Position numbers and translations under genes: made by a program. A DNA stretch of 64,000 bases from Desulfarculaceae bacterium (GTDB lineage Bacteria > Desulfobacterota > Desulfarculia > Desulfarculales > Desulfarculaceae). Shown here piece after piece: positions 46,452 through 53,862 of the stretch. Where the stretch lies: the NCBI GenBank assembly GCA_020444545.1, contig JAHLKT010000001.1:372001-436000 (forward strand), given 5' to 3'. The notes under the pieces are model-generated. The model worked only from the letters and a program-made list of their open reading frames with translations. It did not search any database and was not told where the DNA came from. Each line of letters starts with the position of its first letter. Positions within the stretch are counted from its first letter, which is position 1.

Positions 46452-46718
46452 ATGCAACCCGACCACCAGACCCCGGAAAAAGAGCCCGCCTGGATCGACC
46501 CGGAAGAACGGGCCAAGCAGGCCAACGAGGCCTGGCTGCAAGGCCACTGGAAGATCGTGGCCCCCCTGCTCATCCTGTTCGTCCTGGCCGTGTTCGTGGT
46601 GCCCCTGTTCTTCTTTTCCTTCCTGGAGGCCCTGTGCATCCAGATAGGCGGGGCCGCGGTCCTCTATCTGTTGGGGCGCAAGTTCACCACCGCCTTTGAC
46701 CGCAAGCGTCCTTTCTGA
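46452..46718 (+). CDS. Small two-helix membrane protein
   Basis: 88 residues. A polar acidic N-terminus (EKEPAWIDPEERAKQANEAW) is followed by two hydrophobic segments (~40-60 and ~62-78) and a basic tail KFTTAFDRKRPF. No family recognised. AGGAGG sits six bases before ATG 46452, which decides this start over the upstream in-frame codon at 46425. Stands alone, 199 nt ahead of the large sensor kinase. Confidence 0.65.
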   Translation: MQPDHQTPEKEPAWIDPEERAKQANEAWLQGHWKIVAPLLILFVLAVFVVPLFFFSFLEALCIQIGGAAVLYLLGRKFTTAFDRKRPF

Positions 46719-46917: not shown

Positions 46918-49900
46918 ATGTGCCGGGAGCAACAGGTCTTGGCCACCGAGCCCAAGCTAGGCAACGACGGAAGCCTGCCCCACCGCCTTATCCTGGAGAG
47001 CGTGGGCGAGGACACCCTTACTCAAGTCGCTTCCGATTATCTGGACCTGCTGGGCACCGCGGCGGTCATCCACGAAAAAAACGGCTCTCTCGCCCTGAGC
47101 GTGTTCGCCTCGGACTGGTGCCGCCTGCTGTGCGACGCCCCCTGCCTCGCCAGCCAGGGCGAATCCGCAAGGCAATCGCCCGAGGAGACCTCCTGCTGGG
47201 ACGAGTGCTCCCGCCGGGCCATGGAAACCGGCGGCCCGGTGGAGGTGGCCTGCCAGGGCGGCCTGGAACTCTTCGGCGTGCCCATCATGGCCGGCGAGGT
47301 GGTGGTGGGCGCCATCAGCTTCGCCCATGGGCAGCCGCCCGAAGACCCCGCCGAGCAGGCCCGGCTGGCCGAAGCCCACAGTCTGGACCCCGCCGTTTTG
47401 CAGGCCGAAACCGGCAAGCTGCCTCCCAAGTCCCCGGCCATCGTCGAGCGGGCCAAGCGGCGCCTGGCCACCTCGGCCCGGCTCATCGGCTCGGTGGTGC
47501 AGGCCGAGCTGACCTCCCGCGCCCTGCGCGAGAACGAGGAGAAGTTCCGGCTGCTGACCGAGAACATGAGCGACATCGTCTGGACCACGGACCTCGCCTT
47601 CCAGACCACCTACATGAGCCCCTCGGCGGAGTGGGTGCTCGGCTTCTCTTCCCAAGAACGCGAAGCGCTGACCCTAGAGCAAAAGATCACCCCGGAATCG
47701 GTCCGCAAGCTTTATGACCTGTTCAAGGGCAAGACGCCCCCCGAGGCCAGGGGCAGCCGGCCCGGCGACCCCCTCAAGATGGAGATGGAGTATTACCGCA
47801 AGGACGGCTCCACCGTCTTGATGGAAAACATCATCACCGCCATGCACGACAGCAAGGGCGAGATCATCGGTTTCCACGGGGTCTCGCGCGACATCACTGA
47901 ACGCAAAAAGGCGCAGGAAGAGCTGACTCGCCGCGAGGAGACCCTCCGGGGCATCTTCGACACGGTGCAGGCGGGCATCATCCTGGTGGACGACCAGGGC
48001 GTGATCACCCTTGCCAACCCGCGCATGGCCCAGATGCTGGGGGTCCGCCAGGCCGAGCTGATCGGCACACCCTACCTGGGCCACGTGGCCCAGGATCAGA
48101 TCCCCCATGCCGACCGGGCTATGCGCCAGCTCATGGCCGGCGAGGTGGACCAGGCATCCCAGGAAAGGCTCTACCGCCGGGCCGACGGCTCGCGGTTTTG
48201 GGGCCATCTCACCGGTCAACGCCTGCACCACGCCGACGGCAGCTTCTGGGCCCTGGTGGGGGTCATCCAGGACATCACCGAACGCCGCCGGGCCGACAAA
48301 GCCATCCGGAAGAGCGAGGCCCGCTTCCGCCAACTGGTTGAGAACATCAGCGAGGTCTTTTGGGTGGGCTCGCCGGACTGGCAGGAGGTGAGCTACGTAA
48401 GCCCCTCCTACGAGCAGGTATGGGGCCGCAGCCGGCAAGGCCTCTACGACGAGCCGACATCCTGGATGGAGCTACTGCCCGATGAGGACCGCCAGGCGGT
48501 GACGGACTACATACAGGCCGCCGACCCCGGCCAGCCGGGCACCTTCCCCCTGTACCGCCTGCAACGTGAAGACGGGGAAACCCGCTGGATTTCGGCCCGT
48601 TACTACCCCGTGCGCGACGAGTCGGGCAAGGTGGTGAGCATCTGCGGAATCGCCGAGGACATCACCCGGCAGAAGCAGGCTGAGCAGGAGCTGCGCCAGA
48701 CCCTGGAGCGCCTAAAATCCCACCTGGAGAACTCCCCCTTGGGAGTGGTGGAGTTCGACAGCGAGTACAAGGTCATCTATTGGTCGCCCCAGGCGGAGGA
48801 AATCTTCGGGTGGAAGGCCGAGGAGATGCTGGGCCGGTTCATCGGCGATGTGAGATTCATCCACGAAGACGACGCCGACCAGGTGTACCGGCTCTTCAAG
48901 GAGATGGAGTCCGGGCACCTGAAGAGCAACACCAATTTCAACCGCAACTACCGAAAAGACGGCACGGTCATCGACTGCGCCTGGTACAACTCGGCCCCGC
49001 TGGACGAAAACGGCGAACTCATCTCGGTTTTCTGCAGCGTGTTGGACATTACCGAACGCAAGCGGGACGAGCAGCGCCTCAAGGACAGCGAGGAGCGCTA
49101 CCGCCTGCTGTTCCAGTCCATGCTCTCGGGCTTTTCGCTGCACGAGATAATCACCGACGACGACGGCAAGCCGGTGGACTACACCTTCCTGGAGATGAAC
49201 CCCGCCTTCGAGCGCTTCACCGGGCTCAAGGCTGAGGAGGTGAGGGGCCGCACGGTGCGGGAGGTCTGGCCCGACATCGAGGACTCCTGGATCGAGACCT
49301 ACGGCGAGGTGGCCCTGACCGGCCGGCCCGCCCGCTTCGACGACTACAGCCAGGCCCTGGGCCGCCACTTCGAGGTGGCCGCCTACTCCCCGGCCCCGGG
49401 GCAGTTCGCCACCGTGTTCCAAGATGTCAGCGAGCGCAAGCAGGCCGAAGAGGCCCTGAAGCAGAGCGAGGAGAAGTTCCGCTCCGCCTTTGACAACGCG
49501 GGCGTGGGCATGGCCCTGGTGGACATGGAAGGCTACTTCCTCTCGGCCAACAGCGCCCTGTGCGAAATGCTGGGCTACGACCCGGAAGAGTTCAGGAGCT
49601 TGCGTTTTCTGGAAATCTCCCATCCCGACGACCGGGCGGAGAGCTGGGACCAGGTGAAGCTGATACTCAAGGGCGGGCCAGAGTCCTTCTCGCTGCAAAA
49701 GCGCTACCTGCACAAGGACGGCCGGATCATCTGGGGCCGGGCCAACGTCTCCCTGGTGCGCGGCACGGACGGCGAGCCCTTGTTCGCGGTGGTCCAGATA
49801 GCCGACATTACCGAGACCAAGGAGGCCCAGGAGGAGCTCGCCGAGATCTTCAACATGTCCCTGGACCCGATCTGCGTGGCCGACATCAACAGCGCCACCT

Positions 49901-52900
49901 TCCTCAAGGTCAACCCCGCCTTCACGGCCACCCTGGGCTATTCCGAGCAGGAGTTGCTGGGCGTCTCCTTCATGGAGTTCGTGCACCCCGACGACGTGCA
50001 GCCCACCCTGGATGTTCTGGAGAAGGAACTATCCCGGGGCAACATGGTGATCAACTTCACCAACCGTTACCGCCGCAAGGACGGCGAGTACGTCTGGCTG
50101 AACTGGAACTCCCACCCGGACATGGAAAAGGGCATCACCTACGCGGTGGCCCACGACATCACCGAGCAGCGCCGCTACGAGCGGGAGCTGGAGGAGCGCG
50201 AGGCCCTGCTCAACGAGGTGGGCAGCATCGCCAAGATCGGCGGCTGGGAAATGGACCTGGTCACCCGCAGGTCCAAATGGACCAAGGGCACCTACGACAT
50301 CGTGGAGATCGAGCCGGGCCAGCCCATCCCCGGCCCGGACGATCACATCGCATTTTACCTGCCCCAATACCGGGACATAGTCAGGGAGGCCATGCGGGCC
50401 CTGGAAGAGGACGACGTCCCCCTGGACTTCGAGGCCGAGGCGCTTACCCCCAAGGGCAACGTGAAATGGTGCCGCGCCCTGGGCCGCGCCCAGCGGGTGG
50501 GCGGCAAGGCGGTCCGGCTCTACGGCACCTTCCAGGACATCACCGAGCGTAAAAAGGCAGAGGAAGAGCTTCACGAGAGCGAACAAAAATTCAGGCTGGT
50601 GACCGAAACCATCCAGGACGTGTTCTGGTTGAGCACCTGCGGCGTGGAAGAGATGATCTACGTCAGCCCGGCCTATGAAAACGTATGGGGCCTTTCGCTA
50701 GAAGAGCTTTACAGGAGCCCCAGGGCCTTTTTGGAATCCCTGCATCCGGACGACAAGGAAGGCTACCTGAAAACGATCGGCGAGTACCACCGCCGTGGGA
50801 AAGCCTACGAATGCTCCTACCGCATACTCAGAAAGGGCGGCGAGATCAGGTGGATTGAGGAAAAAGGCTATCCCGTGGCCGAGCCTTCGGGGCGCACCCG
50901 CCTTATGACCGGGGTATGCACGGACATCACCGAGCGTAAAAAGGCAGAGGAGGCGCTCAGGGAGTCCCGCCTGTGGCTGGAGACCATATTCAACGCCCAG
51001 GAGGACGCCATCTTCGTGACCACCCCGGGCCGTCGCACCGTGCAGGTTAACCCCGCGGCCGGCGAGATGTTCGGCTACAGCGATCAGGAGCTTTTCGAGC
51101 GGTCCACCGAGCTGGTGCACGTGGACCAAGCCCACTACGAGGAGTTCGGGCGTCGCATCACCCAAGCCTTCGAGCGGGGGGAGACGGCCCACTTCGAGTA
51201 CGAAATGATGCGCAAGAACGGCGAAGTGTTCCCCACCGAGCACACCGTTTCCATGCTCAAGAGCGAGCTGGGCGAGCCCATGGGCATCCTCAGCGTGGTG
51301 CGCGACATCACCCAGCGCAAGCGGGCCGAGGAGGCCCTGGCCCAGACCCAAGAGCGCTTCCGCCAGCTCATGGAACAGTCACCCTCGGTGATCGAGATCT
51401 ACGACCTGGACGGCACCCAGATCATGGCCAACCGGGCCTACGAGGAGCTGTGGGGCTTCCCGGCCAGCCACACCAAGGGCCGCTTCAACCTGTTCAAAAG
51501 CGAGGAATTCCTCCGCCTGGGCCTGGAGCCATACGCCCGGCGGGCCTATGAGGGGGAGGCCGTGGACATCCCTCCCTACCGCTTCGACGGCACCGGCCCC
51601 ACCGAAGGCCGGGGCCGGGGCCGGACGCGCTGGCTCAAGACCCGCTTATACCCCCTCAAGGACGGCCAGGGGCGGGTGCAGAACCTGGTGATCACCCACG
51701 AGGACTACACCGAGGTGAAAGAGGCCGAGCAGCAAAACCGGGAGCTGGAGGCCCAGCTGAGGCAAAGTCAGAAGCTGGAAGCGGTGGGCACCTTGGCCGG
51801 GGGCATCGCCCACGACTTCAACAACATCCTGGCCGCTATCATGGGCTACGCCGAGCTGACCCAGGACGACCTGCCCGCCGGGCATCCGGGGCACGAGAGC
51901 ATTGAGCAGATACTCAAGGCCACCCGCCGGGCCCGCGACCTCACCCGCCAGGTGCTCAACTTCAGCCGCCCCGGCGAGGAGCACCAGCGGCCCATGCAGC
52001 TGGCCGTGTTGGTCAGGGAGACCCTCAAGCTGCTCCGGCCCTCCATCCCCGCCTACGTGGATTTCCGGAGCGTTATCCGCGACGAAAAGCTGATGATCAA
52101 GGCCGACCAGAGCCAGATGCACCAGGTGCTTCTGAACCTGTGCACCAACGCGGCCCAGGCCCTGAACGAGGGGGGGGTCATCGAGGTGGGTCTGGAAAAG
52201 GTGGAGCTGGACCCGGAGGACCCCCAGGCCCCGCCCGGCCTGCCCTCCGGGGTGTATCAGATGCTTTGGGTCAAGGACAACGGCCCGGGCATGGAACAGG
52301 GCACCCTGGCCCGGATCTTCGATCCCTTCTTCACCACCAAGGAGCCCGGCATGGGCAGCGGCATGGGCCTGTCGGTGGTGCACGGCATCGTGCAGGCCCA
52401 CGACGGCGCGGTGGCCGTGGAAAGCGAGCTGGGTCAGGGCTCGGTTTTCCGGGTGTATTTGCCGGTATTGTCCAAAGGGGAGCTGAGCGGGGAGGCCGCC
52501 CCCGACGCCCCGCCCCGGGGCAGCGAGCATGTCCTCCTGGTGGACGACGAGCCCGCCCTGGTGGACGTGGGGCGCCACGTGCTGGAGCGCCTGGGCTACC
52601 GGGTGACCGCCGCCACCTCCAGCCGGGAGGCCCTGGGGCTCTTCCAGGAGGCCCCCGGGGAGTTCGACCTTTTGCTCACCGACCTCACCATGCCCGGGCT
52701 CACCGGCACCGCCCTGGCCGAGCGCATCCTGGCCATCCGGCCCGATATGCCCGTCATCCTGTGCACCGGCTACAGCTACGAGCATGTCACCGAGGCCCAG
52801 ATGCAGGCCATGGGCATCAGGCGTCTGGCCCACAAGCCCCTGCGCGCGGCGGAGATCGCCGAGATCATCCGCGAAGTGCTGGACGAGCCGCCGGACCGGC

Positions 52901-52905
52901 AATAG
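46918..52905 (+). CDS. PocR / 11x PAS hybrid sensor histidine kinase with receiver domain
   Basis: 1,995 residues. An N-terminal PocR-type sensory domain (~20-180; CQGGLELFGVPIMAGEVVVG) is followed by eleven PAS-PAC units beginning near residues 205, 337, 463, 592, 721, 847, 974, 1091, 1218, 1347 and 1474, each ending in an ITERKKAEEEL-like linker. The kinase has H1632 (GGIAHDFNNIL), an N-box (NLCTNAAQAL), DNGPGM and FDPFFTTKEPG. A C-terminal receiver has LVDDEP and phospho-acceptor D1922 (LLTDLTMP). No transmembrane helix, so cytoplasmic. No separate response regulator is adjacent. Start ATG 46918 lacks a strong SD. Ligand unknown. Confidence 0.93.
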   Translation: MCREQQVLATEPKLGNDGSLPHRLILESVGEDTLTQVASDYLDLLGTAAVIHEKNGSLALSVFASDWCRLLCDAPCLASQGESARQSPEETSCWDECSRRAMETGGPVEVACQGGLELFGVPIMAGEVVVGAISFAHGQPPEDPAEQARLAEAHSLDPAVLQAETGKLPPKSPAIVERAKRRLATSARLIGSVVQAELTSRALRENEEKFRLLTENMSDIVWTTDLAFQTTYMSPSAEWVLGFSSQEREALTLEQKITPESVRKLYDLFKGKTPPEARGSRPGDPLKMEMEYYRKDGSTVLMENIITAMHDSKGEIIGFHGVSRDITERKKAQEELTRREETLRGIFDTVQAGIILVDDQGVITLANPRMAQMLGVRQAELIGTPYLGHVAQDQIPHADRAMRQLMAGEVDQASQERLYRRADGSRFWGHLTGQRLHHADGSFWALVGVIQDITERRRADKAIRKSEARFRQLVENISEVFWVGSPDWQEVSYVSPSYEQVWGRSRQGLYDEPTSWMELLPDEDRQAVTDYIQAADPGQPGTFPLYRLQREDGETRWISARYYPVRDESGKVVSICGIAEDITRQKQAEQELRQTLERLKSHLENSPLGVVEFDSEYKVIYWSPQAEEIFGWKAEEMLGRFIGDVRFIHEDDADQVYRLFKEMESGHLKSNTNFNRNYRKDGTVIDCAWYNSAPLDENGELISVFCSVLDITERKRDEQRLKDSEERYRLLFQSMLSGFSLHEIITDDDGKPVDYTFLEMNPAFERFTGLKAEEVRGRTVREVWPDIEDSWIETYGEVALTGRPARFDDYSQALGRHFEVAAYSPAPGQFATVFQDVSERKQAEEALKQSEEKFRSAFDNAGVGMALVDMEGYFLSANSALCEMLGYDPEEFRSLRFLEISHPDDRAESWDQVKLILKGGPESFSLQKRYLHKDGRIIWGRANVSLVRGTDGEPLFAVVQIADITETKEAQEELAEIFNMSLDPICVADINSATFLKVNPAFTATLGYSEQELLGVSFMEFVHPDDVQPTLDVLEKELSRGNMVINFTNRYRRKDGEYVWLNWNSHPDMEKGITYAVAHDITEQRRYERELEEREALLNEVGSIAKIGGWEMDLVTRRSKWTKGTYDIVEIEPGQPIPGPDDHIAFYLPQYRDIVREAMRALEEDDVPLDFEAEALTPKGNVKWCRALGRAQRVGGKAVRLYGTFQDITERKKAEEELHESEQKFRLVTETIQDVFWLSTCGVEEMIYVSPAYENVWGLSLEELYRSPRAFLESLHPDDKEGYLKTIGEYHRRGKAYECSYRILRKGGEIRWIEEKGYPVAEPSGRTRLMTGVCTDITERKKAEEALRESRLWLETIFNAQEDAIFVTTPGRRTVQVNPAAGEMFGYSDQELFERSTELVHVDQAHYEEFGRRITQAFERGETAHFEYEMMRKNGEVFPTEHTVSMLKSELGEPMGILSVVRDITQRKRAEEALAQTQERFRQLMEQSPSVIEIYDLDGTQIMANRAYEELWGFPASHTKGRFNLFKSEEFLRLGLEPYARRAYEGEAVDIPPYRFDGTGPTEGRGRGRTRWLKTRLYPLKDGQGRVQNLVITHEDYTEVKEAEQQNRELEAQLRQSQKLEAVGTLAGGIAHDFNNILAAIMGYAELTQDDLPAGHPGHESIEQILKATRRARDLTRQVLNFSRPGEEHQRPMQLAVLVRETLKLLRPSIPAYVDFRSVIRDEKLMIKADQSQMHQVLLNLCTNAAQALNEGGVIEVGLEKVELDPEDPQAPPGLPSGVYQMLWVKDNGPGMEQGTLARIFDPFFTTKEPGMGSGMGLSVVHGIVQAHDGAVAVESELGQGSVFRVYLPVLSKGELSGEAAPDAPPRGSEHVLLVDDEPALVDVGRHVLERLGYRVTAATSSREALGLFQEAPGEFDLLLTDLTMPGLTGTALAERILAIRPDMPVILCTGYSYEHVTEAQMQAMGIRRLAHKPLRAAEIAEIIREVLDEPPDRQ

Positions 52906-52950
52906 GCCCGGAAGTTTGCATTCCCCGCCCGGGGCAGGCATAACCTAGAT

Positions 52951-53862
52951 ATGGCTCATTCGTCCAAATTCATCATCCACGCCGCCTTGGTGGGCAACCT
53001 GTTGGTGGCGGCCACCAAGTTCGTGGCCGCCTACTTCACCCGCAGCTCGGCCATGATCTCCGAGGGCATCCACTCCCTAGTGGACACGGGCAACCAGGCG
53101 CTATTGCTCTGGGGCCTGAGGCAGTCGGCCCGCCCGGCCGAGCCCGACTTCCCCTTCGGCCACGGCAAGGAGATCTACTTCTGGAGCTTCGTGGTGGCGG
53201 TGCTCATCTTCGCGGTGGGCGCGGGGGTCTCGCTCTACGAGGGCGTGCTGCACATCCTGCAGCCGGTGCCCATCGAGAACATCATGGTGAACTACATCGT
53301 GCTGGTCTGCGCCATGGGCTTCGAGGGCATGGCCTGGCTCTTCGCCATGCGCGAGTTCAAGCGCACCAAGGGGCGCGACGGCTACTTCCAGGCGGTGCAC
53401 AAGGGCAAGGACCCCACCCTGTTCGTGGTGGTGTTCGAGGACTCGGCGGCCATGCTGGGCCTGTTGGTGGCCCTGGGCGGCAACTTGCTCTACCAGCTCA
53501 CCGGCAACCCCTATTTCGACGGCGGGGCCTCCATCGTCATCGGGCTGATATTGGGGGCCACGGCCATCTGGCTGGCCTACGAGACCAAGGGGCTGTTGAT
53601 CGGGGAGCGGGCGGCGCGCCAAGTGATCAGCGGCATCACCGCCGCGCTTACCGCCCACCCGGTGGTGAGTCACGTCAACGAGGTGCTGACCATGCACCTG
53701 GGGCCCGAGGACATCCTGGCCAACATCAGCGTGGACCTGGACGACCACGCCAACGGCGGAGAGATCGAGAAGGCCCTGGCCGAGATCGAGGCCCGCATCA
53801 AGGCGGACTATCCCCAGGTGAAAAACATCTACATCAAGGCCCAGGCGCGGCCTCCGCTCTAG
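52951..53862 (+). CDS. Cation diffusion facilitator (CDF) family transporter
   Basis: 303 residues, six helices followed by a cytoplasmic ferredoxin-like domain (~210-300). Metal-site motifs: SEGIHSLVDTGNQALLLWG in helix 2 (His-x3-Asp type) and FEDSAAMLGLLVAL in helix 5. Exports Zn2+, Fe2+ or another divalent metal in exchange for protons; the His/Asp set suggests Zn/Fe but does not settle it. The stop codon overlaps the convergent TRAP permease gene by 4 nt. Confidence 0.92.
   Translation: MAHSSKFIIHAALVGNLLVAATKFVAAYFTRSSAMISEGIHSLVDTGNQALLLWGLRQSARPAEPDFPFGHGKEIYFWSFVVAVLIFAVGAGVSLYEGVLHILQPVPIENIMVNYIVLVCAMGFEGMAWLFAMREFKRTKGRDGYFQAVHKGKDPTLFVVVFEDSAAMLGLLVALGGNLLYQLTGNPYFDGGASIVIGLILGATAIWLAYETKGLLIGERAARQVISGITAALTAHPVVSHVNEVLTMHLGPEDILANISVDLDDHANGGEIEKALAEIEARIKADYPQVKNIYIKAQARPPL

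Follow-up and report, generated by a model that had tools for sequence, protein, structure and literature searches.

How do very long sensor arrays in signalling kinases arise, and does every module in them sense? These questions are raised by a gene at positions 46918-52905 (forward strand, as are all features below) of a 64,000-nucleotide stretch (hereafter the window) from a Desulfarculaceae bacterium (assembly GCA_020444545.1, contig JAHLKT010000001.1, positions 372,001 to 436,000), whose genome measures 4.38 Mb. The gene is a single uninterrupted open reading frame (ORF) of 1,995 amino acids (aa) and encodes a hybrid histidine kinase (HK) in which a PocR domain is followed by eleven PAS units, a HisKA-HATPase core and a receiver (REC). 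We consider it probable that the product is a cytoplasmic kinase acting as a serial relay, and that its array is a mosaic formed by capture or exchange of single units, with the ninth (PAS9) added recently. Together with an ortholog that lacks PAS9 and carries a different PAS1, and with the scar at the PAS9 joins, the gene forms a comparison pair in which module capture becomes testable by single-unit deletion or swap.

Pfam and TIGR00229 recover the order of PocR, PAS array and histidine kinase-receiver core that an initial annotation, made from the sequence alone, had proposed for the 1,995 residues. PocR (PF10114) occupies aa 32-190 (47011-47487; E 1.5e-9, 38.2 bits against a curated cut-off of 23.9), HisKA aa 1624-1687 (51787-51978; E 3.3e-11), HATPase_c aa 1730-1850 (52105-52467; E 1.3e-20) and Response_reg aa 1872-1984 (52531-52869; E 9.9e-19). 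The phospho-acceptor H1632 (in GGIAHDFNNIL) and, in the receiver, the acidic pair D1876/D1877, the phospho-aspartate D1922, T1950 and K1973 are all present at their motif positions; by its domains and catalytic residues the protein is a hybrid histidine kinase. No membrane helix is predicted because no segment is hydrophobic enough, the top 19-residue hydropathy being 1.86, within PocR, and the cytoplasmic location suggested by the same annotation is likely.

The count of eleven PAS-PAC units also holds. The dedicated profile TIGR00229 (sensory_box) marks 11 stretches, and there are 11 DIT-like PAC ends (nine DIT, one DVS and one DYT, at aa 325, 452, 581, 710, 836, 963, 1080, 1207, 1336, 1463 and 1596), while single Pfam models recognise 7 to 10 units (PAS_4 10, PAS_3 9, PAS_9 8, PAS 8, PAS_8 7). 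The units are PAS1 (aa 205-330; 47530-47907), PAS2 (47908-48288), PAS3 (48289-48675), PAS4 (48676-49062), PAS5 (49063-49440), PAS6 (49441-49821), PAS7 (49822-50172), PAS8 (50173-50553), a divergent PAS of which the genome-wide TIGR00229 search matches only the second half, PAS9 (50554-50940), PAS10 (50941-51321) and PAS11 (51322-51720), which runs into the kinase dimerisation helix. In the alignment, the linkers between units are all of one length except that before PAS7, which is 7 residues shorter. Among the 54 linkers that could be scored from 178 motif segments of the fetched kinases, 45 have 20 residues, five have 13 and two have 16; two others, of 10 and 55 residues, look spurious. PMC6798134 describes linker length as heptad-dependent, a rule that likely extends to serial sensors; lengths of 20 and 13 residues are one heptad apart and thus match what is expected of coupled coiled coils, so that they fit a putative continuous coiled-coil relay through the array.

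The ortholog (L003) lies in the metagenome-assembled genome (MAG) Desulfarculaceae Tobar13.5m-G33 (JAIPEN010000002.1), and the two loci are taken as orthologous because gene order is preserved around them from Amt to TrkA/Usp. Nine of the eleven units align with it at 56-85% identity, nearly without indels: PAS2 (72%), PAS3 (59%), PAS4 (72%), PAS5 (73%), PAS6 (56%), PAS7 (74%), PAS8 (85%), PAS10 (71%) and PAS11 (81%). The kinase core is 76.5% identical, the receiver 65% and the N-terminus with PocR 45%. PAS9 has no counterpart there, and PAS1 is only 25.9% identical to the ortholog's first PAS, to which no fetched unit is more than 32% identical. This mosaic make-up, with a PAS9 that is probably recent and a PAS1 not orthologous to the unit of the nearest relative, had been overlooked by the initial annotation.

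Tandem duplication as the origin of the array is ruled out, since the best pair of units within the protein is 36% identical and no two of its units are sisters in a tree built with 110 units from 20 kinases, chosen from 170 that had been extracted (at least 96 aa, shorter matches being dropped). The tree can reveal such duplication, as it does in L047 (G002:C6), a kinase from another species of the same genus, whose units 3, 4, 5 and 8 (labelled G002b) cluster like tandem duplicates in a clade that also includes G000c_5 and G001c_5; linkers of L047 agree exactly over as many as 36 nt. Of the nine retained units, seven (PAS2, 3, 4, 7, 8, 10 and 11) are sister to the matching unit of the ortholog, and PAS5 stands in an unresolved trio with the ortholog's unit and G001b_2. 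PAS1 joins units of four other kinases in a starred clade (100/94), its nearest relatives lying in other kinases at 51-56% identity, and PAS9 groups with units of G020, G138 and G045 (100/91). Among the fetched units outside the ortholog, the closest are L042#3 for PAS1 (56%), L043#4 for PAS2 (59%), L059#4 for PAS3 (44%), L057_2201#2, in a second kinase of the ortholog's genome, for PAS5 (60%), L054#6 for PAS6 (50%), L042#2 for PAS7 (70%), L044#2 for PAS8 (71%) and L045#5 for PAS9 (61%). In L042 the PAS7-like and PAS1-like units adjoin, an order not found in the 11-PAS kinase.

PAS9 differs from the rest of the gene in composition. Its G+C content at third codon positions (GC3) is 92/124 (74%), compared with 1689/1872 in the rest of the gene (Fisher p 1.2e-6, for a segment picked after the ortholog comparison), and the other ten units range from 86 to 96%. 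Across the gene, the lowest 129-codon stretch begins at aa 1205, at the linker, and the lowest value elsewhere is 84%. The linkers after PAS8 (50535-50564) and after PAS9 (50922-50951) share an exact 30-nt run that uses the rarer codons CGT (6.4%) and GCA (3.2% of their respective sets in this gene). For two independent draws of ten synonymous codons the probability of agreement is about 0.012, and that of the exact string about 3e-5, both approximate because they include the last codon, whose third base differs between the linkers. Among 210 linker pairs in 12 loci (frames of at least 900 aa with at least four motif matches), this run is the second longest, and four of the five longest runs besides it are in L047, the kinase with tandem duplicates in the tree. 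The nearest kin of PAS9 lie in other kinases, at 61% in G020 (in a kinase of another family), 50% in G138 and 48% in G045, the latter two at E 1e-22 or better. From this combination of composition, repeat and kinship, PAS9 is probably a recent acquisition.

Two other accounts of PAS9 have to be weighed against acquisition. The unit may be ancestral and have been lost in the ortholog's lineage, the linkers having been made alike by gene conversion in the genome of the 11-PAS kinase; only two orthologs are known, and the PAS8-PAS10 linker of the ortholog matches the PAS9-PAS10 linker of our kinase at 38 of 45 nt, the trace expected of a deletion between repeated linkers. We regard loss as unlikely, since it leaves unexplained both a low GC3 that is limited to PAS9 and the position of its nearest kin in other kinases. 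An assembly or binning chimera would also produce a unit of odd composition flanked by identical 30-nt stretches. Such an artefact is highly improbable: the frame is intact, the DIT-to-DIT spacing of 387 nt is the same as that of PAS3 and PAS4, and at 30 nt the repeat is on the short side for an erroneous assembly join.

With one likely recent arrival and another unit without a positional match, arrays of this kind seem to grow by taking modules from other kinases. In the mechanism we propose, recombination at the conserved PAC linkers would have brought single PAS units into the array or swapped them with those of other multi-PAS kinases, and PAS1 would have been replaced in one of the two lineages, that of the kinase or that of the ortholog. 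Several results weigh against this history. A donor of PAS9 did not turn up, the nearest unit being 61% identical and the others listed at most 50%; the composition of PAS1 is normal (GC3 88%); and PAS6 groups with G020b_6 rather than with the ortholog's unit (99/82). PAS3 and PAS9 fall within one ten-unit clade (100/98), so that a very old shared origin of the two is possible. PAS4, PAS10 and PAS11 have distant matches only among the fetched units (29-35%; PAS4 and PAS10 at most 32% over most of their length, PAS11 35%), so that the evidence for capture does not extend to every unit. With one ortholog only, there is no outgroup to polarise the PAS1 and PAS9 events, and the tree itself has few columns, 52 of its 107 inner branches starred and kinases drawn from search hits. 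A broader proposal, which we put forward tentatively and hold to be almost as credible as its opposite, is that the long PAS arrays of this lineage are sets of exchangeable cassettes in which the conserved PAC-linker DNA serves as a recombination seam: single units would pass from kinase to kinase, at times also from species to species, with the coiled-coil register always kept. If true, new sensory inputs could be plugged into a working kinase in a single step. A literature search that included domain shuffling, gain and duplication, with most subscription journals outside its coverage, found no report of PAS capture at linkers.

The PocR domain was compared across the phylum with its 180-aa region as query. 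Matches were found in 3 of 21 genomes of the order and, across the phylum, in 11 of the 395 genomes sampled, the kinase's own genome and G001 being counted in both and G020 being listed with a match in the order search only. Of the 15 places in the phylum search, 12 were fetched, that is, all except the kinase itself, its ortholog and a weak match in G376. With the kinase and its ortholog added, 12 of 14 loci show PocR, then zero or more PAS, then a kinase, and the PocR frames of the remaining two (L094 and L099) showed no kinase; L056, a broken PocR fragment from the order search, was excluded from the count. These PocR kinases form a series with 0 (L090), 1 (L092, L097, L098), 2 (L093), 3 (L091), 4 (L088, L089, L095), 5 (L096), 10 (the ortholog) and 11 detected PAS units, counts that are lower bounds for the distant kinases because the profile was made from the units of the 11-PAS kinase. 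L091 and L093 match the kinase weakly (19 and 26 bits), and L095, interrupted by a stop, was read as two pieces. A second PocR, better scoring (E 5.8e-45), lies at G000:C7:148023-148502 in a 471-aa frame with a weak match to the kinase core (30 bits), and several of the aligned cysteines are missing from it.

In a 14-sequence PocR alignment (L056 partial), three cysteines are invariant (C68, C93 and C112 of our kinase) and two occur in 13 of the 14 sequences, namely C76, missing in L098, and that of a KWLC-like motif, missing in the 11-PAS kinase. The latter has C72 and C97 in addition, and C97 is shared with the ortholog. This set might form a putative metal or Fe-S site. The predicted model of the domain (pLDDT 83.7, below 50 in loop 55-71) suggests a GAF-like fold: its best Foldseek match, and the only one below 0.001, is the NifA GAF domain 8jrc_A (E 7.9e-4), and GAF-like folds fill its list of structural matches. 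In VIA, 8jrc_A (Z 11.5, 119 aligned, root-mean-square deviation 2.7) is tied with the top row, SpoVT 2w1t_A (Z 12.0). A sequence-based structure search with PocR gave one match, at chance level (E 0.83). In PMC1592074, MEDS and PocR proteins of Methanosarcina are predicted to sense growth substrates, and a title in its reference list gives binding of a small hydrocarbon derivative as the predicted role of PocR.

Around the kinase, the block at 39947-61132 is rich in ion and solute transport and includes Amt with P-II, TauE, MscS, a Na/Ca exchanger, CDF, TRAP, CPA2 and TrkA/Usp; it is collinear in the ortholog's genome, with P-II outside the comparison. Every neighbour to which a name could be given is a transporter, a channel or the P-II protein. 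Pfam tests of neighbouring ORFs, though not of every one present, revealed no DNA-binding regulator, in agreement with the earlier statement that none is adjacent. Directly upstream lies a conserved 88-aa protein (46452-46718; 81% in the ortholog's genome), hydrophobic by eye and with no Pfam family. A CDF-family cation efflux transporter (52951-53862) starts 45 nt downstream of the kinase, preceded at 52916-52950 by a promoter-like TTGCAT-17-CATAAC that ends six bases before its start, and a like sequence is seen by eye in the ortholog's genome. A kinase-CDF operon is unsupported in view of the collinear block, the kinase-less CDF orthologs and this promoter-like sequence; the CDF gene is probably transcribed separately, and its transcript may be leaderless. 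Rfam scans of the window at the gathering threshold, and tRNA scans, were empty.

The most likely function, as far as can be read from sequence, is that of a hybrid kinase that combines input from PocR with input from some of the PAS units. PocR, GAF-like and with a conserved cysteine set, would serve as the N-terminal sensor, and, in a parallel dimer, the eleven PAS units would be coupled one after another through coiled coils as a relay, some of them adding ligand or redox inputs and the remainder transmitting. Autophosphorylation would occur at H1632, and the phosphate would move to D1922 in the receiver of the same protein and from there to an HPt or regulator encoded elsewhere. The kinase's genome has five HPt matches, each within a frame of 517-1,069 aa, with no small stand-alone HPt among them. 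That the putative PAS inputs include many redox or ligand signals, as first annotated, is plausible. Most units might instead be degenerate spacers, with sensing by PocR with or without one or two PAS and an array length that is near neutral, which would also be compatible with a mosaic history. In PAS domains of the LOV type, which bind flavin mononucleotide (FMN), the reactive cysteine lies in an NCRFL motif, and the protein contains no such motif (no N[CS]R[FIL]L). Haem-binding PAS domains of the FixL/DosP type have a proximal histidine on the F helix; PAS10, the unit run individually against solved PAS structures, matches FixL 1d06 weakly (E 0.002), with its histidines not confidently aligned, and its best match to any solved PAS structure is also weak (E 1.8e-4). 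These results, and the wide range of 0 to 11 detected PAS among PocR kinases, make the spacer explanation a serious possibility; against it, at the level of plain sequence identity, the ortholog retains nine of the units (56-85%) with hardly an indel, and we lean towards integration of several inputs. A further idea, that the kinase controls the adjacent CDF metal exporter or senses its substrate, the metal being bound at the PocR cysteines, draws on that conserved cysteine set and on an adjacency kept in G000 and G001. Since the entire block is collinear, this adjacency carries little weight; three CDF orthologs (G003, on a 5.8 kb contig, G009 and G011) have no kinase match in their fetched flanks, and the promoter-like sequence (TTGCAT-17-CATAA, by eye) precedes CDF in both genomes. 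We therefore consider a link to CDF quite improbable and retain the integrating relay.

The initial annotation had placed the protein at the extreme end of PAS number. Relative to its genome and order the number is indeed high: of 140 genome-wide TIGR00229 matches, 11 lie in the kinase frame and seven in each of the next two frames, so that the array is the longest seen in this genome, and same-order kinases reach 10 (the ortholog and L043, the latter with some partial), 9 (L054) and 8 (L047 and L060) when counted with a profile made from the eleven units in loci picked from search hits, not at random. It is no record, since PMC10468136 reports that proteins carry two PAS on average, that Phytophthora kinases have more than 14 and that the number rises to 19 in the cyanobacterial histidine kinase A0A1Z4MZL8. 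The kind of protein is ordinary and already known. Among the matches listed in a search of relatives, with at most ten candidates scored per genome, 40 of 40 have at least one. The homologue search gave six loci, of which L004-L008 (25-29% identity) were left out of the analysis, and the full-length protein, searched against plasmids at E 1e-100, gave no match.

Compared with known systems, the kinase stands closest to its ortholog, which has the same PocR, PAS array, HK, REC and neighbours but ten PAS units, without PAS9, a different PAS1 and an N-terminus, bearing PocR, of only 45% identity. The pair offers natural cases in which an array accommodates PAS units of foreign origin, which would be of use in sensor engineering. 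Five kinases from other genomes of the phylum (L088, L089, L096, L097 and L098) share the order PocR, PAS, HK and REC; they differ in having one to five detected PAS, in some cases N-terminal extensions, and a KWLC-type cysteine in PocR that the 11-PAS kinase lacks (L098 lacks another cysteine). The same-order multi-PAS hybrid kinases L043, L047 and L054 resemble it in their 8-10 PAS matches (some partial in L043) and in a homologous kinase-receiver core, but have no PocR match, and L047 has been partly expanded by tandem duplication. The cyanobacterial 19-PAS kinase, known to us from its description in PMC10468136, likewise carries a very long array in one kinase, and a longer one.

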